Part shown: piece after piece, positions 4,088-28,824 of the stretch
Layout of the letters: the number at the start of each line of letters is the position of its first letter
Numbering within the stretch: the first letter of the stretch is position 1
From: Saccoglossus kowalevskii
Taxonomy: Eukaryota; Hemichordata; Enteropneusta; Harrimaniidae
Reading direction: 5' to 3'
DNA length: 29,627 nt
NCBI RefSeq assembly: GCF_000003605.2
Contig: NW_003151270.1
Span: 89,787-119,413, forward strand
Notes under the pieces: model-generated
What the model saw: the letters and a program-made list of their open reading frames with translations, nothing else
What the model was told of the DNA's origin: nothing
Databases searched by the model: none
Position numbers and translations under genes: made by a program

Positions 4088-4120
4088 TTTATAAAGCCCG
4101 CAACACACAATTTGACAGTT
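4088..4120 (+). promoter_or_regulatory. TATA core promoter of precursor gene 1
   Basis: TTTATAAAG at 4088-4096 is a good TATA box. Transcription would be expected about 25-30 bases downstream, around 4115-4120. That leaves a 5' leader of roughly 30 bases before the ATG at 4149, with no sign of an intron. TATA promoters with short leaders are common in strongly expressed, cell-type-restricted genes; applying that here is inference. Confidence 0.6.
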
Positions 4121-4148: not shown

Positions 4149-4661
4149 ATGCCTGTCATTCGGCTCGCTAACGTTCTACTGTTTTTCGCCTGGGTCTCCG
4201 TCTGCCTGCGTGTAGTCAATCTGGAAACCCTGGACGGGAAAGACGACGGCCCTATGATGGGCACCGTTGACGACAGCCTGTCAATGGGCATACAAAGCAC
4301 CGGTTCAAAACAAATTGATCTGCGATGTCAGAAGTGTCAGCGTACTGCGCGTTTCACCAATAGGCTCAAAACTACCAGAACAAACACAGACTGTCCCGCA
4401 ATATGTAGTATACAGAGTTACTGGAAAAGAGAAGAACCTGTCGGTGTTAAAAAGGATCCAAGTTTGGTAACACGCCGGCATACTTGGAACAGCAATGCTC
4501 TTCAGAACTGCAAGTCGTACTGTAGTTGGATTCGCAAAAGATCGTGGACGCCGAAATGTGTGGGAACGTGTACAGGGGAGCAGGAACAAGACATGACGAA
4601 ACGAGCGCTTATTGGATTGCCATACTGTGTCGCAGTGTGCCAGGAAATGAACCAAGGCTGA
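4149..4661 (+). CDS. Putative secreted cysteine-pair peptide precursor 1
   Basis: A 170-aa single-exon protein of a family I do not recognise. Residues 1-19 or so (MPVIRLANVLLFFAWVSVC) form a signal peptide. Five close cysteine pairs follow: C60/C63, C82/C86, C121/C125, C137/C141 and C160/C164, the last four C-x3-C. Dibasic sites lie at KR93-94, RR109-110, RKR129-131 and KR151-152, so convertase cleavage would give several peptides, each with one small disulphide loop. One is HTWNSNALQNCKSYCSWI (111-128) and the last is ALIGLPYCVAVCQEMNQG. The protein ends in Gly, which could serve as an amide donor. The start codon has A at -3 and follows a TATA promoter. The paralogue at 15419-15940 shares the architecture. 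A multi-peptide neuropeptide or hormone precursor is the favoured reading. A folded cysteine-stabilised helical hairpin is the alternative, since C121-C141 has C-x3-C-x11-C-x3-C spacing. Confidence 0.75.
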   Translation: MPVIRLANVLLFFAWVSVCLRVVNLETLDGKDDGPMMGTVDDSLSMGIQSTGSKQIDLRCQKCQRTARFTNRLKTTRTNTDCPAICSIQSYWKREEPVGVKKDPSLVTRRHTWNSNALQNCKSYCSWIRKRSWTPKCVGTCTGEQEQDMTKRALIGLPYCVAVCQEMNQG

Positions 4662-7600
4662 TATATACTGGCACAGTCTGATATACCAGTCGTTATGGAA
4701 ACGAAACTTCATTTTGACAAAGTTTGTTTTTGTACATACTACTGACATTGTTCGGATCGATTGTTGAATACTGAAGACGAACAATGAATATTGGTGAACA
4801 TTGAATCGAGAGAAAAAAAGTACGTTCGCGAATTACCTATATAGATTGTAGTATGTGTGTATCTATCAACTTAATTTATACTGTGAAAATTAATGTAAAT
4901 GTATATTTTGCTTTGCAAAAGTACAATATATCCTGTACAAAACTGTGTTATGTACCATCATCTTCAACAACGCCAACGGTGTTGAAACTTTTCTGTTCTT
5001 GAGAGCTTTTTGAAATTATTAGGTTTGTAGTATTTCACCTCCACTAAATATTAAAAAAAACACGTCTTAAAAATAAATCTTTGCATCTCGAATATCCATT
5101 GTGCATATCGATTATACAGAACCGAAGGCACGTATCGACAGAAAGAGCAAATCTATACTTATTCAGTTGTATTTTATATAAAGAGAAAAATCTGTTTATA
5201 TATGAAATAATTACAGCAGTCGGAATCAGTTTCAATAGTCACGTGATATTGTGGGACGATAACTACTGATTAGGAGCGATGCATAGCTCAGGAGAACTCG
5301 TCTAAAGCAAGAAAGATTCAAAATTATAGGTGTTCTTTCATCGAATGTAATTTATCCATCATTCACTTATCCATTAAAACTATTATTCGTTCTTACACTT
5401 GGCACGTATCTGTGTGTTTTCCATTGTGTAAGAACGTGTTCTCACAATAACGTTCCCCCCTTGTGTAGCTTCAGCCCGAGGGTTAGATGAAATAGCCACG
5501 TGATCTATAGAGTATTCCCGAGAAATAGACACGGAAACCCCGATTTTCAAATATCAAGTTTTTGTAACGCTCGTGATAATGACACAACAGTGCAAACTCG
5601 CACTGAATGGCGATCACACGTTTTGAGTACACGTAAACAAATCACTATTGTAGTAAAAAATAGTGAATCCATACAGCACACGTTGGCAAGCATCGTAAAC
5701 TAAAGACGTTGCTGCTGTAGCACATTACTGCTATGAGCCCGGAGAAAAATGGTTCAAAATATGTTTATTTCAATTTTTTTTTGATTATTAGGAAGATGTA
5801 ATTTTGTGTCTGTGTGTTTAGGAAGGGGAAGTACAACCATTCCAATTCAAAGTTAATACTTTAGCATATTTTGAAATTATTATATTATCCTTTCTGCCAT
5901 CAAAATAGTATAAGGCTTGATAAAAGTAAAGTTATTATTACATGTATGTAAGGTTCCATATTAAATATGCCTTAGAATATTATATAATTCATGATGTTCT
6001 GTTCGCTACGTAAGATATACTGCTATCTTTAATACATGTGTTATTTAAGTCCTAGAAATTTGCGTTCCCTATTAGCTCAAGTATTTCATTTCTAAAAGCA
6101 GCGACCAGGCTAGCAGGCTAGTCATGTAATAAAGCGGGAAAACTGGAGAGTTTATTTAACGTCATTCGTGTGATGCTTCCTGTGTAATCTGAAATCGTAT
6201 AATTATTCTTTGGGAATCGTGTGATTTCCCCCCGACAAACTGTCCTAGTATCCGGAAAAGTGGATTAAACGGCACATGCTATACTGAATAATTGCAATTT
6301 TTTAAATATTTTGGTTTTATATGCACAACATATGATTAAGAAGTTATATCAGTCTAGCATATAATGTCTGGTTCATGTTTTGTTTTGCTCGAATGGGACT
6401 ACCGTTACCATTTTTCACAAAATATCCCAAAAAAAACGAATTTGCTTGTGTAACGTTAATTAAACATAACAACCGGTAATCGTTAGTATTACGCCCATAG
6501 AGTCGGTCTTGGTGGTAGGTAGAACACAAAGCAGAAGTATACACAGGTAAGTATGTTTAAGATACTGTCATACAATGTTCGCATATCGTAAATTATGTCA
6601 CATGGGGGTCGTATTGGTTACTGACATGAATGGGATTGCCTTCAAGCACGTATAGTAAGGAAGTGTCATAAGTTACATTTAATATGTAAAGTAAGTGACT
6701 TCGAACAAAGACTGCCCATGTGCATTATTATTTATTTGTTCGTTAAACCCATAACTTATAGTCAACAGTATGTTATGTGATTGTATGGGTAACTTGTGGC
6801 TCAACAATGTTGTGATTTGTGATTTTCTTCGCATTTACAATTATTTTGTTTTACCAAATTGTATGAACGCGTCAGTGAATTGGTACAACTAGTTACGACA
6901 CAGCAAATCTGCGTGCGTCGCTGGTGGTGTATCATGTCGGCTTAGATGGAACACTGATGCTAAATCCGACAAATGAACATGTAACTAAATAGTTATGACA
7001 AATTGTATTAAACCTCAGCCTTTTGGTTAGACAAAGACAAAGTTAGGCTACTCTTGATAGTCACCAGTAGTATTATGCCATCAATAATATGTCATACTCA
7101 TAGTCAAATTTTATCAAATCAACCGATTAATTCCATCCCAAACAGATGACGATAACGATAATGAAACGGTGTAAGCAGTAGAAGTTGTTTTCATAATATG
7201 AAAGTATAATTGTCCAACTCAAGTCACTAAATTAGTTTGACTGTATTGGTTAGAAACCGTATCTACGATTGAATCAATCTAGTGCAAAACTTATGAAAAG
7301 AAATCGGTAGAAAAAGGTTGAACAAAACAAAAAAGCTACGCCACTTAAAGTCAAATTAATTATGGGTTTTTTTTCCAAAGCTGTATATAAAACCAAAATG
7401 TAGAATATTCACAACATGGCGAACAAATATATTGTCTTGTTTTTTAAGTATGAGATAAACCCGTCGAGACATTTTGTTTCCACGAGGAGCATTTTATATC
7501 CCTGGAAAGTCCCTGTATGAGGCCTTTATCTGACTTTAAAACCCACCACTTCCAAACCATCAATTTTTCGGAATTTTTCATTTTTTTGAAGGCTTTCAGT

Positions 7601-10276
7601 GAGTCTTGTAAACTATTTTGCACACATTTTCGGGAAAGGGGATCATGCCCCTTTTTCAAATGGACTATGCGCGTACACGTGTGCGTAAGCATTGTCTTCT
7701 CGGAATGTTCTCATGCAATTATCATACTGAAATTAAGGTGGGTGGACCGTATACGCAAGATTTATATAATGCACACTTGTGAATAGTCATGACTGATATA
7801 AAAAATTAATTAGTCCAAAAGCCAATGACCGACATAGAATTTCAAATAGCTCAATGAGAGGGGTGTTTGCCATGTCGATGTGTGAGTTGCGAATTCGACA
7901 CCAAACTTACGTGTTACATGTTACGGGATATGTATAAAAGTTTCGGACAATTTATGAGAATAAAAGCTTATAAAATGTCTAGGAAATTTATTTATAAAAG
8001 TCCTATGACAAAACAGCACATTTAGTGTTTATGAAGTCCCACAACAGGACATTAAGATTGGTCGATAAGCACTAGGTGTGTTGTAACGGCAATTATCTAA
8101 AATAAAAAAAGGTTATCACTGTGACTTTTTTGTGCATGGCTCTAATGGCTAAGAAGAATGTATAATCAGATAATTGAATCTTTCAATGTCATTTATTATA
8201 ATAGATAGGAATTTGATATTCGACATTCATTACTCTTAAAGACTGATATATAGTGTGATGGGAATTGTGAAATGGTCACAGTAAAATTATTATATCTCTG
8301 CTTTATTCTCGTCATTTGCGATTTTGTCCCGTGATCTGTGTTCCCAAAATGACAAAGCAGTTTGTTTTTCCAGCATGTACTTTAGAAGAAATGCCATCTA
8401 TTTAAACTTGAAATGCCTAAAATTTGATCAAAACAGATTGTTATTCTTGTACATACACTATAACTAAACATGCATATCCACACAGCTATATCATGACACT
8501 CGTACAGTCGTTGTAATTGTAATATCTACTAATGTCGGATATGTGTATAAGAATAATAAATCAATTCAAAATATGTACGAGTGTAAAATAGCATAAATAA
8601 TAATATTCCACCAATATTTGTATACGCATTGGCAGTTATTAATATTTCAACTCAGTGTCTATGAAGTAAATACATTATATTTTAATATTGTGTGATTATG
8701 TTTGCTCGATTTCACCAAAATAGATAAAATTTGACTTTTTTAAAACGTAAAATTCTGCGAAAACGTTTGGTGCTGTTAATTTATAACTCCTAGCATTTTA
8801 TAAAAATTTGAAAATTATAAAAAATATTTGCCTTGAAAAGTTGTGGCATAGAGAACACAGCAGCTAGTCGTGTTTCCGTGGTGCAAAAGTTTCCGTTAAA
8901 ACTCTGTGAGCTTGACTTCAGTAGTTACATCATATGCATTGTTACATATTGTACCCCTTACTGTGCTGTGTCGTCAATGTGTTACTCAGATCATTAACCA
9001 TTTAACAGGTTTATTGTCAGCGTTGGTTTGCTGTACATAAGCTGTACGTGTAGAGTGCCTTATATATTTTATTTGTTTCATTGAAACTATTAACTCTCGT
9101 ATATTAACATTATAGTCAACGTTTCCAAAAGAAATGTAAACTTTGTGGGTAATCATAACCCCCACTGTATTATATACGATTATTAGAGAAACCGTAGTGT
9201 ACTCAATATCATGCATTCATGAACAACTTGGGTGTTTTTGACTCAAATAATATGACAAACGAACAATAATAGTTAAGATTTTGCATTCATATTTTAAAAA
9301 CCGTTTATAACTTGACTGCCTAATTCTGCAGCCCAGTATCTCCATGGCATTTGCGACAAAATACAAATATACTTGCCTGACCACCCCTTCAACGTGTGAG
9401 CACCACTCCTTGTACTTGAAAGAGATTGTAATATAGTTCAAAACTTATAGCCTTATAATATCCCATCAATACATTCCCTCATTTCCATATACTTTTCTAC
9501 AAATAATGTGAATATTATATATTCTATGAATATATATTTCTCATAAGATTCTTGCTATGTTGTATATATGTATACAGCTGTCTTATAATAATGCAGCAAG
9601 TTTTCCCAGGTAATAATAATCACGGAGTCATGGTGTGTGAGGGTAACATTTACCCCAAAATCTAAAACTGAATGCCCGTTTGTGTCACATCACGATAAAG
9701 GTTGTATGAAGAGAAGAATATTGTAGGATATATATATCACAAAGATGGTTTATATCCCATGTCTTCATTTGATTTTTGTTCATACATACATTCATTTGAT
9801 TTTGGTTAGGTTAGAGATAGATAGTTTGCACAGTGCAGTAACCACAAAGGTATATCTTTACCTAGAATGATAGGTCAACATCACCATAAATGTGTATTAA
9901 TGTATATAACATCTAACTGGCCGTAACTTATCACCAAGTAAAATGATGATTTTTGCTTGTGCTTTTAATTGACGAAAAATTGTTGTTGTTTTTTAAGTAA
10001 GGCTCATGCATGTTGTTGACTTATAGTGACATCTCGCAGAGGAATCGGATTTTATAGCGTGCGCCCATGATTATACTCAATTACCCTAATAAATATGTAA
10101 ATTGCGTCATTTTGTTTTTCCACTAAAATGAGTATCAACAGCGACATTTGAAAAAATAACGATGCAATCACTTAGCTTAGAAAATAAATCTTGGAATTTC
10201 GGGGATTTAACGTAAAACGATAAACACAATTTACACTTACACCATTGGCATTATGCGCGCCTTATTTTACGTAGCA
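4662..10276. other. Long AT-rich gene-free interval
   Basis: No reading frame here has a recognisable domain, signal peptide or convincing splice context. The open frames at 5044-5269, 6344-6544, 7444-7786 and 8986-9441 look like chance. Possible polyadenylation signals for precursor gene 1 exist (for example AATAAA at 5072-5077). TATA-like words occur at 7383 and 7933 but cannot be tied to a gene. Confidence 0.5.
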
Positions 10277-10296
10277 AACAAACAAACAAACAAACT
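10277..10296. repeat. (CAAA)n microsatellite
   Basis: About five perfect CAAA units in a row. It is a simple repeat with no other feature nearby. Confidence 0.8.
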
Positions 10297-10764
10297 GTTC
10301 TGCACGCATTGTATCGTCGCATGGATCTACTTCGAACGCAACTGTACTAATGCCTCATTTTCCACATACATCAGCATGACAATGGTGTGAATGAAACGCA
10401 TACATCACTTTACTCATCAAAGCAGTTGAGTCGAAGCAAATATTATAATACATGGCAAAATGTGATAAGTCGGAAATTCAGGCACAATCTCGTAAATAGC
10501 TTCGCGTTATCTCAATCGTGGTGGCGGTGTGAATGACAACCAAGTAATAACTGTAATTTCGCCTAACGAATATTTCGGTTTAGTATATATATTATGAAAC
10601 TGGATTAGCCTAAAAACAAATCTATAAGAGTGTTGTAGGATTCAAAACATTCGCTTTCGTTTATCAGTAAAGGTTGCGATGTAGTGGCAAACATTCGTCT
10701 GTATGAAAATCGTTTAATTTGCACTGCTAAAAATTATCATGATTTTCGGATTTTCGTGAAGACA

Positions 10765-10833
10765 ACATTTTGCGAAAGTCACCGACACTTTATGTCGTAG
10801 GACTCCAGAAAAAGTGTCACTGCTGCAAAATGT
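10765..10833. repeat. Imperfect inverted repeat
   Basis: The left arm starting ACATTTTGC and ending near ACACTTT (10765-10791) pairs imperfectly with the right arm ending GCAAAATGT at 10833. It could be a decayed miniature element or a hairpin. There are no clear target duplications. Confidence 0.4.
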
Positions 10834-11988
10834 TTCACTGACATTTGTTTCTCAGGTAATTGGAACAGTTCACAGTGGTAGGCTGTGATATGCTGACGGG
10901 TACTAAGAAGCAGTAGTTGTACTTGTTTGTTTCACGTATGCGTGCCGACCCCCGAGACTCGATACAATACATTGTCTCATTTCTTAAGTCACGCAGTTAG
11001 CATATACACCAGTTATTTATTCGCATCGTACAACTTTATATTCAATGAGCTAAAGCATTATTTCCAACCATCTACTTTGCCTCGTGTAAAATCAACTAAA
11101 ACCTACTTATCATCTGTACACACTAAACGATGGACGTGATATGCATTTGATCCCCACAGCTGTACGGGGTTCAGAAAGGCCACTTACAGATATACGCAGA
11201 ATCCCCTATAGAGGACAGTTATGATGAGAAGGACTATGCAAAGCGAGTGATAACGTTGATGAGGTGAAGAGCAAACCAACTGTCAGTCACAATAGTATAT
11301 TCGGGAAATCACGAATTTCCCTAACCACTGGACCCGCACGCCCCAGTTATGATCAGTGCCACTGGGAGAAGCGGGTCTGTAGGATTATAGTCATATTTGT
11401 ATTCATAGAAAACAAACTTGCATTCGGATTAAAGATTAAACATGATCCCTCCATGTAAGCCAAGTGATGTCAGAACTCAGACTCGTTATTATTAACAACA
11501 CGCGTACAAGTTTGCTTTCTAAGACTCGGGCACAGACGACGACGTTTAATATCACATACTTATACTCCAATATGACGTAATTGCCATTATCTGATTTACA
11601 AGAAAATTCCACACTGTCATAAAAAAACACTTCGTGTATTGTGCGGAGACACGTACATACATTTGTGTAGTGTCTAATGTGAAAATGGGTGTTGTGATTA
11701 GACGTATTGCGATAACGATGTAATATACATAACTCGCCTTAATATGTTTGTGTGAGTACAAAGTCAATCTACACTGATATACACACGAATATTGACATGA
11801 AAAGTCTCGTGTTCAAAGTATAAATACATTCACGTGATTGGTGTCGATCACGATATACGAATGCATGGACAAATGTAAAGATCGATTAATTAACTGATCG
11901 ATTAGCGACAGGCTAATACTGAACAGAGGGATATTTTCGTAACAACAATTCTTAAACTCAAAATATCAAAAATATTATAAAAACTTAA

Positions 11989-12112
11989 AATGTAATTAGG
12001 AATTTGCTTTATATGTAAAGTGTAAAAATCTATATTTTACTGTAAATGGAACATTCATTTTATTTCCTGTAAAAACGTAAAATTCCGTTTTTATTTCCCG
12101 TAACCTGTACCA
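11989..12112. repeat. Dispersed repeat, copy 1 (partner at 28701-28824)
   Basis: About 124 bp that matches 28701-28824 in the same orientation, beginning AATGTAATTAGGAATTTGCT and ending near CTGTACCA, with scattered differences. It is an interspersed repeat of unknown class. Neither copy shows clear terminal inverted repeats or coding potential. Confidence 0.75.
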
Positions 12113-12149
12113 ATTCATATTTTACAATGAATATTGCAGCCATACCAAT

Positions 12150-12216
12150 AAAATACAATGAATTAAAATAAATTAAAATACATTGAATTAAAATTAATTA
12201 AAATACATTGAATTAA
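12150..12216. repeat. 25-bp AT-rich tandem repeat
   Basis: Roughly two and a half units of about 25 bp built on AATTAAAATACATTG. It is an AT-rich minisatellite lying just after the dispersed repeat at 11989-12112. Confidence 0.6.
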
Positions 12217-13019
12217 CATTTCTAGGTGCATGAAGACGATTAGACACTGTGTGATATGAACACTGCTTGCGCAGTATGATAATTACCAAATCAGTAATGA
12301 CGACATTTATTATGCAAATATGAATGTCATTCACACATTTCCTCAGAAAAGTTGTTAAAACTTGTGAACGGTAATGTTAATATTTTATTGGCGTTAACGT
12401 GCGCCATGTAACATTCTTCGCATTTGTATGACTGTACATGTCAAGGGATAAACACCTGGCCGATCTATGACATCATTAATTGAGGGGAGGGGGTGTCAGA
12501 CATATATATGGTCTATCGTCATCGGATACTACTCAGCTTACTGCTGAGTACGACTCCACTCACGTGACGTGTTGAGAAACGTTTTTTTTTAAATTTAACT
12601 TTAATTTGTTAACATAACAGTTGAACATCCAATTAAGGAGAATTAAACAAGGTGGTCACAGTCAGTCGTACAAATTGTTAATCACAATAAGTCTGACGAG
12701 ATTTACTGAAATTCAGATATCTCTATACTCCGCAATTCTACAATATTGTCTTCTTGTAAATAGAATCTTTCTGTTTTATTACGTACCATGAAAATTCATT
12801 TGTAGTACCTTTTAAAATGTTTAAACCTGTCTCTAAAAATAAACTGAATAACATAAACAAAACTTCCCCAAACTACCGAGTACTGTGAAATCTGCATCGT
12901 GACATTCGAGCTGAATGGTGATAAAACGGCTCTGTAATAGTTTTTGGTTTGAGGCTTGACTACATTATCCTCAGAAATAAAATTATTACCATATTTTACA
13001 ACATATTACATGATACGCA

Positions 13020-13312
13020 CCCTCCACTAAGCGTCACGCGATCCTCGTCCCCATCAACTTACCCTCTTCGCCCTCTTTTGTCCTATCAACTTAGTGTCAA
13101 TTGTACATTCCCTCGTGCTCAACTAAGTGTAGCATGCTTGCGCCACGGTCCCTACTGTGGGGCTGTGTCCGCGCCTTATGTCCCTTAACTTAGTGCCACA
13201 CGCTCTTCGTCTCATGCTCCTCAACTAACTATTACATGCTTTTCACTCCGTGCCCCTCAACTAAGTGTCAGACACCCCCTCAACTTAGTGTCACGCGCTC
13301 CTTGTCTCGTGG
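13020..13312. repeat. Degenerate ~36-bp C-rich satellite
   Basis: About eight diverged units, most opening TCAACTTAGTGTCA or TCAACTAAGTGTCA and continuing with a C/T-rich stretch such as CGCTCCTTGTCTCGTG. Units vary from about 23 to 66 bp. The GC content and C/T strand bias differ sharply from the AT-rich surroundings. The 79-residue open frame across it is a by-product of the repeat. Confidence 0.75.
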
Positions 13313-15402
13313 TCATTTTCTGAGTACCAAACACTCGCCGCCTACTGAACTCACTGTCTTGCCAAATACCACACTTTTCTAAATGTCAAACGGCTTCGCC
13401 ATGATTCGGGCGACAATTTAAAATGTCACGCTAACCGACGTCACCGCAAAGGTAGCCGAGATCGCGTGTTTCATTTGCAAAATATCTGCGTTTCGTGAGA
13501 AGAGACAAACACTTTCTGTAGTTGAGTTATCTGCATCACAATCAATCATACGAGAAAGTCATAGAAACCATGAAATTGTCAACGCATACTGACTGGTTAC
13601 TTGCATTGCAACTGTAATACATTTCTACACCTACTCAACCTCACATTTACTTCCTAGGGGGTACTTACACTGAGCAGGTATAATTTCGAAGTGTAATGTT
13701 TTATTTGAACCACGTACTATTTTAAAGTTTTTACTTTAATAGTCTCAATAGAGGTTTATGCTCAGCACCTACAGCTGATGAGCAATCCTTAATTAACAAA
13801 AAATCTTCGTCTCGGGGGGGGGCTGTCTGTTACAACACACGAATTGCATCAAAGAAATCCGGTCTGTAACTATGGATACAATTTTCGCAAAATTGTGAGA
13901 GAGTGATATTCATATTCGCATCGCGGCTGTTTCGGCCCCTGGGCAATTTTATTATTTATGTACGGGTATGCGAAGCGCCAACTTTTAGTGAAAAACACGG
14001 TCCGGGAAACCAGTTCCTTCAAAAACCCACACCTTGAAACAAATTTTCAAAGACAACCCGCCTCTGAAAACATTTTTCTTTTGCAGCAGCACAAAACTAG
14101 GTAAAATGTCACTGTTACGTATATCGCGTTACATGCACTATTAGTATATCAACACAGCTTTGATTCCTGAAAATATTTCCTTGACAACTAGCTTGAGCCT
14201 TGAAAATGTCAAAAAAGACCCCTTGCCCATTTTGACACATAATTTATAGACCCATCGTATGCCTCTTGGTAGGTTAGTACTAGCCCCTCTCACACCCCCA
14301 CGGGGGAAACCCCAATCACGTAACCATAGTAGTAAGTCCGGGGTTACACTGATCGACGACAAGGTATACCTTATTGATGAATCACTGATCAACCAATTTA
14401 TCGGGTGGAAGAGGAATAGTACAACGCGTAAGATTATAATGCATTCAAATATTGAAAAAGGGTGTTTCATGCGTTTCCAATAAACAATATCTACCATGGT
14501 CCGCTGCGTATGCATGCTTTCTTATCTGAATACGGAAGACAGTAAATAGTGACCTCTATTGATGACCAAAAGCCTTAATGGCAGGGGGCGCAATTCATGC
14601 GAGTAGCAGCATTTTTCAGTTTGTTTTATATTTACAATAATTATTGTGATTAACCAAAATATATGCGACAGGCAGTCATCGGAGGGCAAATATTCAAATG
14701 AAGGCAACGTACAAACATGTAATCTGTATTTTCATTCATAATTTTTGTAATTTTGAACACGTGAATAAAAGTACCAGAAACAATTATGATTACGTGTGTA
14801 GAGCCTCGTTTTCATTAAAGCAATATAGACGAGAACATTTAATTTAATTTTTGAAATTGTTTGTTACTGTATGTTGGTAAATACATTAGGGTTATTTTTC
14901 ACCATTGCATGAACACGCCTTTCTTGTGGCACACATGTGAGTTTTCCTTCAAAGAAATACTGAAATTCTCTAGTACGCATGTGCATTGGCTGTGTCGGTA
15001 CGTCAGTCAGTGCACATGCGCAGTAGTGTGTTTTGATTTTTCATCTAACGAACTCTGTTGTGTGTCCTCCAAACGCAACATGTTTAGTTCATTAAAAATC
15101 ATAGTCTGATTCGGTCTGCATTACATACTGAGCCATGGGAATAGGCTCTTTTTTTAAAAATTCAAATATATGAATTTTGAAAAAATGAAGCCCATACTTA
15201 CCTGGGTTTTTAATCAGATTGTGTATTGAGTATCGAACAATGAAATTATAAAATATATATTTTTGACCATGTTGCTTCTTTAATTATAATCTTAATCGTA
15301 CAAATCGACATCGACTATAACAAATGAATTACTGGTACACTATTATTGCATATATAGTAACTTTTATTTCCATTAAAGTGAACAAACTGTTGTTTTTTTT
15401 CA
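13313..15402. other. Gene-free interval upstream of precursor gene 2
   Basis: No recognisable coding exon. The open frame at 14141-14515 (minus) has no identifiable domain. A (G)9 run lies at 13814-13822. A short imperfect inverted repeat built on GCATGTGCA/TGCACATGC lies at 14971-15026. The 5' untranslated exon of the gene at 15404 should lie somewhere upstream, but I could not place it. Confidence 0.45.
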
Positions 15403-15403
15403 G
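15391..15403 (+). promoter_or_regulatory. 3' splice acceptor before precursor gene 2
   Basis: TGTTTTTTTTCAG is a strong polypyrimidine tract plus AG. It places the start of the coding exon at 15404, 15 bases before the ATG at 15419. Gene 2 therefore probably has an intron in its 5' leader, unlike gene 1. Confidence 0.7.
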
Positions 15404-15418
15404 GAGGTACTGCTTAAA

Positions 15419-15940
15419 ATGTGTACCATGCAAAAGAGTGTGTTCCTAACCCTAGTATTGGTCGGAATAGCAACCGTAATAGCCATTGAAATCGACCTCA
15501 CCGAAAACGCTGAAGTGAACAATCCCTTTGATGACGTCACAGGCCTAGTCAAGAAAAAGAATGGTGCTTGCAACACCCCAAAATGTCAAAGTGGGAGATC
15601 CCGACAGCGCCAGCTACGACTCCTTCACGCCGAAGGGAAACCGTGTGGTCGATACTGTCAAAGTTGGAAACGGAGTGCGCTCGCTGGAGATACGGACCTA
15701 CATGTCGATGGCGACGACAAAATAAGACGAGAATGGTACGACCAAGCTTTACAAAATTGTAAACCTTATTGCAACTGGTTAAAACGCAGATCTAGGAGCA
15801 CGACTTGCAAGTGGCCATTTTGTGATAACAGTCAGTCTCCTGACATTGACGACGATGACAATAACAGCGACGACAACGACGGAAGAAGGGCGCTTATCGG
15901 TTTACCGTACTGTTTACCACTGTGTCAAGGGAGAAACTGA
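15419..15940 (+). CDS. Putative secreted cysteine-pair peptide precursor 2
   Basis: A 173-aa paralogue of the protein at 4149-4661. The signal peptide covers about residues 1-22 (M4 at 15428 is an alternative start). Five cysteine pairs occur in the same order: C51/C56, C76/C80, C114/C118, C130/C135 and C165/C169. Basic sites KR84-85, RR103-104, KRR122-124 and RR156-157 correspond to those of gene 1. The mature peptides would include EWYDQALQNCKPYCNWL (105-121) and the final ALIGLPYCLPLCQ, followed by G-R-N, where cleavage at the Arg could yield an amide. An Asp/Asn-rich spacer (142-155) before the last peptide is longer than in gene 1. Sequence outside the cysteine peptides has diverged strongly while these motifs are kept, which points to selection on the peptides. 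The coding part is a single exon. Possible AATAAA signals lie at 16222-16227 and 16313-16318. Function is unknown. Confidence 0.8.
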   Translation: MCTMQKSVFLTLVLVGIATVIAIEIDLTENAEVNNPFDDVTGLVKKKNGACNTPKCQSGRSRQRQLRLLHAEGKPCGRYCQSWKRSALAGDTDLHVDGDDKIRREWYDQALQNCKPYCNWLKRRSRSTTCKWPFCDNSQSPDIDDDDNNSDDNDGRRALIGLPYCLPLCQGRN

Positions 15941-19068: not shown

Positions 19069-21413
19069 TCAGCTTGCGGAGCTGTCGTTGTTAACCGGAA
19101 TGTTTGAGTTGTTGTTGTTGTTGTTATCGATTGGTGTCGGGGCTGGAAGAATGCTTACATTTCTCGACGGCAATACTTGGACTACAGAGGGCGCTCCAGT
19201 GTAGGATATCATCATTGGTGGCGGCATTTCCTCAACACTGAAGTACTTCATTCCTACAAAAACGAAAAGATAGTTATTTATTCTATGTACAATTAAAAAT
19301 AATGCATTCACGTAATTTCATTTTTCAAAACAGGGGAATAAATACGGTTGTGCTACCACAATGAGACACAATATTGCTCTACGGAATCAAGTGCACAGAA
19401 AAAAAGTTTCAGAGGCGTACATTTCCGTGCACAGTTTTCCAGCGAGTTGAACCCAGAATAAATAACGACCCGTCCCTAACGTAACCCCGATGAAGAGACT
19501 ATAAACAACAATGAGGTGGTGTTTTTAACATTTCGTCGATCGTTTACAAACTAAAATAGGACTGTGCGTAAAACAAGAAGTCAATGCCTACCTTCTTGGC
19601 GCGACTGTAGCTGAGGTACCACGTGACCCGTTGCTGACGTAGTCGGTTTGCGCAGAATCATTTCAAGTTTATGCATATAAGATATAGCACATCGTAACGT
19701 TTCCACTTTGCTCATTTTAAAAACTCTCTTACCGGTATGTTCGGTCTTCATGAGGAGGTCCTTTGGCAAGACACTACGAAGCAAATCAAATGCACTGTTT
19801 AATTTATTGACCCGTATCCTTTCCCGTGCATTGGCTTTTCGGCGAACGAATTCTTTGCTGTCAGTCTCCGGCGAACTCCCCTTATTAGAAGGCATTCTGT
19901 GTGTTTCCTTAAGCAGTAACCTCAAGGGCGTTTTCTTCCGACGTCGGCTAACGCGGCAGCGTAGACGCTGTTGTGGGCGTATCGTCGTATTTGGAGGTCG
20001 GGCGTTCAGTAGTGTCTGTGACGATATAGGACGTTGGATTTGTACAGGGATGCACTGGACTGGGGCACCTGATTCGGTGATGGAGGTTGCCATGACAACA
20101 TTAGGAGCTGACAAAGTCGTCGGTGGCATTGGTGCGATTGGTGGAAGGAAGGACTGCGACTGACTAATATAGGTCGGATTCAGTGATATGTTGGAAGACG
20201 TCGTCGTGGTAACCGGGGCGGAGGGAGTCGTCATCATGCTGTTGGTGATTTGCAATGAGTTGACAGGCAAAATGTTTTGAAACTGATTACAAAACGAGTT
20301 ATTCTGCTGTATTTGCTGAAAAGTTGGTGGTATGTTCACAGGATTGTTGCTCTGTATGACGTCATTACACCTTAATGGTATGAAATCGGCAGTCGGTCCA
20401 CGACGACTTGCAGTATGAGATGGTGGCAGGTTCGTGACGTTAGAGGGCGATATAGCAAGTGGAATACCCTGAACCGATGACTTTGGCCGAATTGGGCGCA
20501 GGCTACTCAGTATAGCAGTTTTCGAGTCCAAATGAGTTTTTCGTTTAGCCGAAAAATTTTGAGATGGCGGGCGGAGGGTGCGTACGATCGGTGGAGGCGT
20601 ATGAATGCAATTGCATTCCTCCATCCCTGGTGGCGTTCCCTTGGTAACTGGGGGTGTTTTGCCATCTACGTCATCAGAATAGGCTTGCTCACGTTCAGAA
20701 ATGACGTCAACACTTGCAAATCCGACTGCAATATCACCATTATATTCCCCAGGGTTCTCAGCACTACTCTGGATTGTAATAGAATCATCAACATTCTCGG
20801 AAACGCGATCATTTTCGCAATGTTCACTCGCAGGGGTTGGTTCATCTGGTATTGTTTCGTATATGACTGGTCGGCACGGTACATTGCAGTTATCGCCTGT
20901 CGCAGATGAATGAAGAAAGTGGTTATATACACTGATGCTTGTGCCAGGTAAACTTGGGATATAGCTTGAATGCACAAGTGACGGCGCATTTTGAGTTTGT
21001 ACACGAGAACCAAGTATATTTGATGCATTTGGCCTAACTACAACGTTATTCGAAGACTGCAGAATTGTTTGGTGGTCAAACACTGGTCTGGAATTCAGAT
21101 ATCCACCTGCTTGTATGGCTCCAGTTGCTGTGGCACATGGCCGCGCCAACAACCCACGTGGTTGAACTTGTCGGGGAACCAACAACTGCGGCTGGCTTGG
21201 ATAGATGGAGCGTGGTTGGTACGTCTGTCTGCCACCACATTGTAGAACGCCATAGTCTTGTGGAAGCGGTAATAGGTATGGTCTTGTGAAGAGCGAATTG
21301 GAGTTTAGTTGGGGAGCCGGAAACATGTTTTGAAATCCGACGACACATGGGTTGACCCCAGGATACGCCGTGTAAGTCTGTTGCGCAGCTGCCCGGGGAA
21401 CAAAGTTGTCCAT
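19069..21413 (-). CDS. Group A bHLH transcription factor, two exons
   Basis: Exon 1 runs 21413-19592 and ends AAG|gtaggc. The intron is 19591-19254 and its acceptor reads tttttgtag. Exon 2 is 19253-19069. The join is in phase 1 and gives 668 aa. The first ATG follows an in-frame TAG 16 codons upstream. Residues 1-520 are low-complexity (Pro, Gln, Ser, Asn, Thr) and probably form a regulatory region. The bHLH lies at about 524-588. Its basic segment RRKANARERIRV includes E531 and R532, expected to contact E-box DNA. Helix 1 (LNSAFDLLRSVLP) resembles neurogenin/Mist-type proteins. Helix 2 (KMSKVETLRCAISYMHKL) resembles achaete-scute types. The loop, P550 to K566, is about nine residues longer than in Ascl proteins. 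Exon 2 adds a Pro-rich and poly-Asn tail. As a nuclear factor it would be expected to bind CANNTG with an E-protein partner; the exact subfamily is unresolved. Confidence 0.85.
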
Positions 21414-25148: not shown

Positions 25149-26292
25149 GCCTTCTAAAAGATGTTATAGCTGCATTTGATTCCCCAGAAAACATGATTAG
25201 AATGGATGAAGCACATGACAACGCTGGTAATGATATGATGAAAATGATGCAGATTGTGTTTCCCGTAGCAACGCAAATACAACAAGAGGTCATACAGAAA
25301 TATGGTTTTACTCCTGATGGCGATGGTAAGAAGATTTAGTCACCTAATAGTCTTGATATTGTACTCTGAAAAAATTGTGAATATTTTGTTTTTGGCTACT
25401 GTAAAATGACTAATTTTCACTGGGTTTAAATTTCACTGATTTGGCATTTCAGGCAATATTCAGTGGGTTTTAAATTCACGATTTTATCATTTAGATAATG
25501 TGTTCTATGCTCAATTTTACATATTCACTGGGTTTTAATTTAGCACATTTTCTAAATTAAAACCCAGTGAATAACTAAATCTTTTACAGTAATAAATTAA
25601 GTTATTGTTACCTGCTTATCGGTCTTTGTAGATAAGAAAACTAATGAAAGAAGAAATTAAATGAATTGTCATCTATCAAATGTTACATTTTCATTCTATT
25701 TATAACTTTCTCTGTTATTGTCTAGTATTTAACATTGTATCTATCGCCTTTATGTTGAATTGATTCATCAACATGCTTGTTTGTACATTTCAATCATATT
25801 ACTGTGAAATACTTTATTTTAGCTGGAATTAATTATCGCTGAAATAACTTTTTGGGTGTTTTATATGGAATTTAGTTTCACTGATTATTGTATGTGAAAG
25901 TTAAATGTGAAATATTGGAAAAATAGTATATTCGCTGTATTTTATTTTCACTGAATCATTCCTTCAGCGAAAATTAATTTCAAGCAAAAATAAAGTATTT
26001 TACAGTATTCAATTTATCAATTCAACTTTCAAAACTATTATATGGGATTATGGGATTTTCTTGTTTCTGCTTTTCAGGAGCTATCAAGTTCGCACAGTCG
26101 ATTCGTCAGTATGAGAATTTAGACTCTGAAATATCCCAGATGGGCGCAAAGTTGAAATCAATGTTTTTACCTCCAATGCCACAGATGACAAGTTTTTCAG
26201 CGGTAGATGCATCATCAACAACTTCACTTTCACAACAACCATTAGTCGCAATACCGCCATTATCAGAAAGAGCTCGCAGTGCTGATGTCTGA
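25149..26292 (+). CDS. C12orf57-like: Protein C10 homologue (C12orf57/GRCC10 family), 5' end missing
   Basis: Two coding exons: 25149-25325 (acceptor TTTGTTAG, donor G|GTAAGA) and 26078-26292 (acceptor CTGCTTTTCAG). They join in phase 1 and give 130 residues plus the stop. The first reads GLLKDVIAAFDSPENMIRMD and continues with DNAGNDMMKMMQIVFPVATQ, matching the conserved core of animal Protein C10. The second continues GAIKFAQSIRQYE and LKSMFLPPM, also family hallmarks. The tail after FLPPM is Ser/Pro-rich and somewhat longer than in the 126-aa human protein. Exon 25149 starts in phase 1, so an upstream exon coding for the start Met and roughly 15-20 residues must exist, and I could not find it. 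The family is small and widely conserved; the human gene is linked to a neurodevelopmental syndrome, and the molecular role is not well defined. Possible AATAAA signals lie at 26805-26810 and 26815-26820. Confidence 0.9.
25397..25591. mobile_element. MITE family A, copy 2, in C10 intron
   Basis: A 195-bp element with TACTGTAAAA and TTTTACAGTA ends, close to identical to 2251-2461. The right half holds a palindrome: CACTGGGTTTTAATTTAG pairs with CTAAATTAAAACCCAGTG across a loop of a few bases. It sits 72 bases after the splice donor and does not disturb the splice sites. Confidence 0.85.
25800..26007. mobile_element. MITE family B, copy 2, in C10 intron
   Basis: A 208-bp element beginning TACTGTGAAATACTTTATTT and ending AAATAAAGTATTTTACAGTA, with imperfect terminal inverted repeats of about 45 bp that include TTAATTNTCGCTGAA. 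TA lies at both outer ends. Its right end matches 17343-17532. It ends about 70 bases before the splice acceptor of C10 exon 26078. It shares the outer TACTGTAAAA of family A but has a different body. Confidence 0.85.
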
Positions 26293-26683: not shown

Positions 26684-27124
26684 TGAGGTGCATCTAAAAT
26701 GTAGGCGCATACATGCCAACATTCTTTAAGTGTAATAACCTAAAACTTCTAGTTTGTATATTTTTATACAGATTGCCCGCTGTGAAAACCTCCTTGGATA
26801 CCAAAATAAATAGGAATAAATGGTGTTGACAGGCTATGCGTTTAGTTATATTTATTATTATTATACATCTGGCACCGTAACGGCATAAGTTACAGCGTGC
26901 CGTAATTTTGCGGGGTATTTTCATCCTTCCATATAAGGAAATGCGAATTCCAAATATGGAATGATTATGCACGTAAGCGTCCTCTAATAATAAAAACAAA
27001 CATGGCTGCCATCGGGGTTTGACCAGACTTCACACACAAAGAAGTTCGCTGATTCTGTTCTAAACTTTTTTGGATTTCGGCATTCCCATGATGTACCATT
27101 GGAAGGAAAAGATGTATAATAATA

Positions 27125-27253
27125 AGGTTATTACGAAGATACCTCAAAGTATGTACTCAGACAGTATGCCGCGCATCGAACTCCACTGCGCGTCGACCGA
27201 TACTCCAGCTGTACTGTCTTCGTGCATATTTTGAGGTATCCTCGTAATAACCT
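27125..27253. mobile_element. 129-bp palindromic element
   Basis: Arms 27125-27156 and 27222-27253 are inverted copies over 32 bp with three mismatches (outer AGGTTATTACGA, inner GATACCTCAAA). Weaker pairing continues inward (CGCGCA/TGCGCG). The whole unit could fold into a long hairpin. Non-coding and MITE-like. Confidence 0.7.
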
Positions 27254-27320
27254 CATATTAGAACTAGTAAAGTATATTAATTATGTAAAGTATTGTTGAT
27301 TAGTCATATTTAATCCTTTG

Positions 27321-28700: not shown

Positions 28701-28824
28701 AATGTAATTAGGAATTTGCTTTATCTGTAAAGTGTAAAAACTATTTGTTATTGTAAATGGAACTTTTCTTTTTATTTCTTGTAAAAACGTAAAATGCATT
28801 TTGTATATCCTGTAATCTGTACCA
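28701..28824. repeat. Dispersed repeat, copy 2 (partner at 11989-12112)
   Basis: It matches 11989-12112 in the same orientation from AATGTAATTAGGAATTTGCT to CTGTACCA. Similarity extends weakly upstream (ATATTATA). Non-coding repeat of unknown class. Confidence 0.75.

Follow-up and report, generated by a model that had tools for sequence, protein, structure and literature searches.

A stretch of 29,627 nucleotides from the enteropneust hemichordate Saccoglossus kowalevskii (assembly GCF_000003605.2, contig NW_003151270.1, positions 89,787 to 119,413, where the contig ends; hereafter the window) holds two genes, here called P1 and P2, for small cysteine-paired proteins that begin with a signal-peptide-like region. 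The two lie on a common strand, separated by 10,757 bp. An initial annotation, drawn from the letters of the window, had described two secreted-type proteins of 170 and 173 amino acids (aa) about 11 kb apart on one strand, and its coordinates and lengths were reproduced. An alternative start at Met4 is possible in P2 and would shorten that protein to 170 aa.

4149..4661, + strand: P1 precursor, 170 aa, single coding exon, uninterrupted reading frame
15419..15940, + strand: P2 precursor, 173 aa, single coding exon, uninterrupted reading frame
4149..4205, + strand: P1 signal-peptide-like segment, about residues 1-19 (predicted cut point), with VLLFFAWVSVC as its most hydrophobic stretch

Both proteins open with a hydrophobic stretch of the kind expected of a signal peptide, to which the AlphaFold model of P1 adds a putatively signal-like helix over residues 3-26. 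Behind this region each protein contains ten cysteines arranged as five close pairs; the extra cysteines, Cys19 in P1 and Cys2 in P2, both fall inside it. When ten cysteines were placed at random, five separated close pairs arose in 3 of 200,000 trials at a length of 146 and in 1 of 200,000 at a length of 150. Among the 91 stop-to-stop frames of at least 60 aa in the window, only P1 and P2 have at least four C-x2-4-C pairs. The five close pairs follow one order, as initially annotated, but the description of all of them as C-x3-C does not hold: gaps within pairs are 2, 3, 3, 3 and 3 residues in P1 and 4, 3, 3, 4 and 3 in P2, leaving pairs 2, 3 and 5 as the only ones that are C-x3-C in both. 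Gaps between pairs are steady (18/19, 34/33, 11/11 and 18/29 residues in P1/P2), with only the last differing markedly.

Paralogy, constraint and copy number

P1 and P2 are true paralogues under protein-level constraint. BLASTP aligns them at E 2e-13 with 35 of 94 residues identical. Their local score of 149, computed with the first 24 and 22 residues omitted, was never reached in three sets of 2000 shuffles, whose maxima were 69 (free shuffling), 76 (Cys kept in place) and 93 (Cys, Lys and Arg kept in place). Counted by the Nei-Gojobori method over the 155 codons of the protein alignment, the whole-length proportion of synonymous differences (pS) was 0.83 against a proportion of nonsynonymous differences (pN) of 0.49, and codons differ at 28 of the 50 identical residues. 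Two conserved blocks had been singled out in a strongly diverged remainder, ALQNCK-x-YC-x-W and the RALIGLPYC-x3-CQ end, and the counts bear this out. The CK-x-YC-x-W block shows 12.0 synonymous changes over 10.5 synonymous sites and a pN of 0.32, and the ALIGLPYC block 8.5 synonymous changes over 11.2 sites (pS 0.76) and a pN of 0.13; outside both, pS is 0.78 and pN 0.62. The initial annotation had proposed to look for purifying selection confined to the peptides; pN is lower in these blocks (B and D below), a comparison made partly circular by their choice. Could the two be chance open frames or decayed copies? Synonymous saturation alongside a conserved protein, intact frames and conserved motifs make this scarcely credible.

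Protein searches of the species' own 572-Mb assembly returned P1 and P2 as the sole significant matches. One genome search gave two matches and the other four, the extra two at E 1.1 and 3.6 and with internal stops; copy counts are lower bounds, and because such a search scores only the best candidates and ignores introns, a short or split copy could escape. The IGLPYC pattern occurs at six places in the assembly, namely P1, P2 and four unrelated frames, against nine in the reversed control. The CK-x-YC-x-W pattern occurs at 56 places against 15 in its reversed control: P1, P2, 26 in one repeat-rich contig and 28 others, all of which were read and, though in excess over the control, include nothing resembling the pair. 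As a separate observation, a repeat frame of the repeat-rich contig reads CKIYCDW many times; in the 21 of 26 places fetched, whose distinct frames were read, it is a repeat and no relative of P1 or P2. A comparison of P1 and P2 with four 10-kb stretches of fetched sequence yielded a single match, at E 4.0, and a scan of viral contigs with the P1/P2 alignment, in a collection that is not animal, yielded 76 pattern matches and no relative. Saturated synonymous sites together with two copies found indicate, as far as the assembly shows, a single old duplication rather than a recent expansion. The local expansion suggested at first thus gives way to two copies in the assembly, a number that is a lower bound.

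Predicted processing and competing readings

Four of the five basic clusters in each protein correspond between P1 and P2 (KR93/KR84, RR109/RR103, RKR129/KRR122 and KR151/RR156). The claim of dibasic sites at matching places therefore stands for these four and fails for KK101 of P1 and KKK45 of P2, which have no partners. In neither protein are Cys pairs 1 and 2 separated by a dibasic site. RKR in P1 answers to KRR in P2 with the codons swapped (CGC-AAA versus AAA-CGC), and the persistence of the clusters while letters and codons change suggests that basic character itself is conserved. Corresponding clusters flank the two conserved blocks, an arrangement in which predicted cleavage sites would bound conserved peptides, as in a precursor. 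Both C-termini read KR/RR-ALIGLPYC-x3-CQ with a Gly positioned for amidation, and both D peptides would carry a Gln-amide end. The predicted peptides are as follows.

4326..4424, + strand: P1 peptide A core, Cys pairs 1 and 2 up to Trp92, then KR (4425-4430)
4479..4532, + strand: P1 peptide B, HTWNSNALQNCKSYCSWI, flanked by RR (4473-4478) and RKR (4533-4541); conserved block
4542..4598, + strand: P1 peptide C, Cys pair 4, flanked by RKR and KR (4599-4604)
4605..4658, + strand: P1 peptide D, ALIGLPYCVAVCQEMNQ-G, Gly preceding the stop, predicted amide; the most conserved block (pN 0.13)
15560..15667, + strand: P2 peptide A, Cys pairs 1 and 2 up to Trp83, flanked by KKK (15551-15559) and KR (15668-15673)
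15731..15781, + strand: P2 peptide B, EWYDQALQNCKPYCNWL, flanked by RR (15725-15730) and KRR (15782-15790); conserved block
15791..15883, + strand: P2 peptide C, Cys pair 4 (C-x4-C) and acidic tail, then RR (15884-15889)
15890..15928, + strand: P2 peptide D, ALIGLPYCLPLCQ, then G-R-N-stop, predicted amide after cleavage at Arg; conserved block

On the strength of the sequence, P1 and P2 are probably a pair of paralogous prohormones of this enteropneust, processed to several looped peptides, a reading to which we give a probability of about 0.68. A signal peptide would take them into the secretory pathway, local disulphides would form inside each close Cys pair, and a PC2-type convertase would cut the shared KR, RR, RKR/KRR and KR/RR sites. 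Cleavage would release a peptide A with four cysteines and a free Trp end, a peptide B reading CK-x-YC-x-W-I/L, a variable peptide C and, from the C-terminus, a peptide D, ALIGLPYC-x3-CQ, amidated by PAM. Neurons or gland cells would be the expected sites of expression; the constrained B and D would most likely act on G-protein-coupled receptors. PC2, glutaminyl cyclase and PAM have been used as peptide-processing markers in S. kowalevskii (PMC10508912). Of the signalling precursors first proposed, the secreted-type paralogy, the conserved processing-type basic sites and the short conserved blocks are supported, and the local expansion is not.

The main rival, which we consider unlikely, is a folded disulphide-rich secreted protein left uncut at its basic sites, for example one of helical hairpins built from adjacent C-x3-C motifs. 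The helical hairpin family carries two neighbouring C-x3-C motifs in one chain, and neighbouring C-x3-C motifs are likewise present in P1 and P2, where P1 pairs 3 and 4 fit as C-x3-C-x11-C-x3-C. The twin C-x3-C is broken across the paralogues, however, at pair 1 (C-x2-C in P1, C-x4-C in P2) and at pair 4 (C-x3-C in P1, C-x4-C in P2), and a basic cluster sits between pairs 3 and 4. Basic clusters conserved in position also argue against an uncut chain, as do the searches: Pfam-A gave no family for either protein up to E 10, the best PDB sequences were unrelated chains at E 0.30 and 0.45, and AlphaFold gave no confident fold. Mean predicted local distance difference test (pLDDT) values were 39 for P2, whose model used P1 as the alignment, and 44 for P1 as a single sequence; the first two ten-residue blocks of the P1 model reach 75 and 84, and block means elsewhere are at most 53. 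NCBIfam gave no significant match either, a result of little weight from a library built for bacteria and archaea. A match to a known family of folded secreted proteins uncut at the dibasic sites, named in the initial annotation as a finding that would speak against it, did not emerge at significant E from Pfam or from the PDB sequences.

Several points nonetheless weigh against the prohormone reading. The number of cysteines behind the signal region is even, and the steady spacing between pairs would be equally expected of a folded, uncut protein; both models show a low-confidence helix across ALQNCK-x-YC. The four peptides inside one precursor are not copies of each other. The low AlphaFold confidence is weak evidence, since the P2 model drew on a single relative and the P1 model on none. 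Finally, the low block pN is partly circular because the blocks were chosen after alignment, which leaves the synonymous saturation unaffected.

The same processing could instead yield secreted epidermal defence or mucus peptides, aimed at microbes or mucus rather than a receptor, and this we regard as less probable still than an uncut protein. Such a role would suit the small size of the predicted disulphide peptides, the strongly diverged sequence around the blocks and the excess of basic over acidic residues in the whole P1 chain (24 versus 15). P2, however, is nearly neutral (25 versus 23), the near-identity of ALIGLPYC despite synonymous saturation looks like a fit to a fixed partner, and two copies were found, with no array.

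Neighbouring genes, repeats and the mitochondrial contig

Consensus matches to promoter and splicing signals lie upstream of both genes.

4090..4095, + strand: TATAAA, 59 bases 5' of the P1 ATG, candidate promoter by consensus match only
4115..4120, + strand: initiator-like ACAGTT accompanying the P1 TATAAA, candidate promoter by consensus match only
15392..15403, + strand: T-run and CAG resembling a 3' splice site, 15 bases 5' of the P2 ATG, consensus match

From its acceptor-like tract, P2 may have an untranslated 5' exon further upstream. AATAAA occurs at 5072 and 16222, consensus matches that say nothing on transcription.

Pfam scans of the window covered the three forward frames; on the reverse strand they took in every frame of the left half, up to 14,999, and a single frame out of three in the right half. 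Between P1 and P2 they found no family on the + strand and none on the - strand to 14,999. Neither Rfam models nor a tRNA search gave any hit in the window, and the 10 kb upstream, compared in six frames with Pfam, held no family. A basic helix-loop-helix transcription factor (Pfam HLH) with a long N-terminal region lies at 19581-21413 on the - strand, 610 aa in one open frame. An orthologue of Protein C10 (Pfam P_C10) has two exons on the + strand at about 25151-25327 and 26074-26181, the second of which alone falls below threshold (23.6 bits against a family cut-off of 27).

An element resembling a miniature inverted-repeat transposable element, with the terminal inverted repeat TACTGTAAAA, is present in three copies (2251-2461, 25397-25591 and 25800-26007), the latter two between the C10 exons. 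Copies 1 and 2 agree at 93-97% across three ungapped segments, and copy 3 is about 65% alike. A dispersed direct repeat pair (11989-12112 and 28701-28824) agrees at 98% and 85% over two ungapped segments, and inverted repeats at 27122-27256 and 1613-1767 have 45-nt arms that are 87% and 78% complementary.

In the mitochondrial contig of the assembly, COX1 is inverted, ND5 adjoins CYTB, ND6 is on the opposite strand and ND2 precedes ND1; COX1 and ND6 were named by Pfam and the rest by eye, over 15,800 of 17,037 bases. In CYTB and COX2, judged by eye, ATA stands at conserved Ile and AAA at conserved Lys; none of the eight genes counted uses AGG. The S. kowalevskii mitochondrion is described with COX1 inverted and ND1 or ND2 relocated, with AUA as Ile, AAA as Lys and no AGG (PMC3121625), and nd5 adjoins cob in two hemichordates (PMC2697986). 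This agreement in gene order and codon use points to S. kowalevskii or a very close relative, and on it an earlier guess of a mollusc or another lophotrochozoan as host was rejected.

Comparison with known peptide systems

The class of thing to which P1 and P2 would belong is known, and their family appears undescribed as far as can be searched. That no named family fits, as first annotated, agrees with the lack of a significant match in Pfam, NCBIfam and PDB sequences, and extends as far as these libraries and the searchable text. The motif strings are unmatched in searchable literature text, outside which lie figures, supplements and two 2013 neuropeptide surveys, and a prior listing is possible. 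The neuropeptides of S. kowalevskii include VIamide, luqin, WFMRFamide, NNFamide, vasotocin, orexin, GnRH, CRH, TRH and calcitonin, and the accessible portion of the report listing them makes no mention of a pair like P1 and P2 (PMC10508912). A conserved precursor pair of this sort would probably go undetected when known families serve as queries. Hemichordates inform reconstructions of the ancestral deuterostome nervous system, and the QRFP-, PrRP- and GnIH/NPFF-type receptors of S. kowalevskii had no known ligand in 2014 (PMC4062910). The predicted peptides of P1 and P2, foremost ALIGLPYC-x3-CQ-amide, are possible ligands for receptors of this species that lack a known one.

The endothelin pattern is C-x-C ... 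C-x3-C-x5-W with a free C-terminal Trp, and Pfam includes an endothelin model. Like it, P1 peptide A ends C-x3-C-x5-W before KR. Unlike endothelin, P1 and P2 contain no C-x-C, P2 peptide A ends C-x3-C-x2-W, and each precursor would give several peptides; with no Pfam match up to E 10, endothelin membership was set aside. The looser proposal that P1 and P2 are hemichordate ligands of the endothelin/bombesin/CCHamide receptor group, with the endothelin-like tail and free Trp of P1 peptide A as its clue, is improbable. If true, the endothelin type itself would extend beyond vertebrates. The absent C-x-C and the lack of the same tail in P2 count against it, as do the bombesin-type and CCHamide-like ligands already described in ambulacrarians (PMC12002301, PMC5627052); bombesin-type receptors are reported in S. 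kowalevskii (PMC12002301).

Disulphide-looped peptides, predicted in P1 and P2, are shared with the endothelin, CCHamide, GGNG (EP) and elevenin ligands, among which endothelins and elevenins are non-amidated and CCHamides amidated (PMC5627052). A CCHamide or GGNG precursor has a single amidated two-Cys peptide in its N-terminal part (PMC5627052); peptide D is C-terminal and each precursor has several Cys pairs, and this identity was rejected. Amidated two-Cys peptides are also known as Arnp25 in a starfish and PCNP3a/b in a crinoid, PCNP3a being structurally related to PCNP3b (PMC4772807, PMC9793003), and Arnp25 was later termed CCHamide-like (PMC5627052). P1 and P2 resemble them in a two-Cys peptide with a predicted amide, a likeness that for PCNP3a/b concerns their description and not their letters; unlike peptide D, the Arnp25 peptide adjoins the signal peptide.

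CCWamide/agatoxin-like precursors of lophotrochozoans and arthropods have eight cysteines in one C-terminal peptide, an amidated aromatic end and usually three exons (PMC8557429). Identity with CCWamide, first taken for a two-Cys W-amide, was dropped on the contrast between its eight-Cys single peptide and the two-Cys peptide D. Like CCWamide (PMC8557429), P1 and P2 would be secreted precursors with a Cys-rich peptide behind a basic site, an aromatic residue often standing between two cysteines; unlike it, they have five separate pairs, one coding exon and two cysteines in the C-terminal peptide D.

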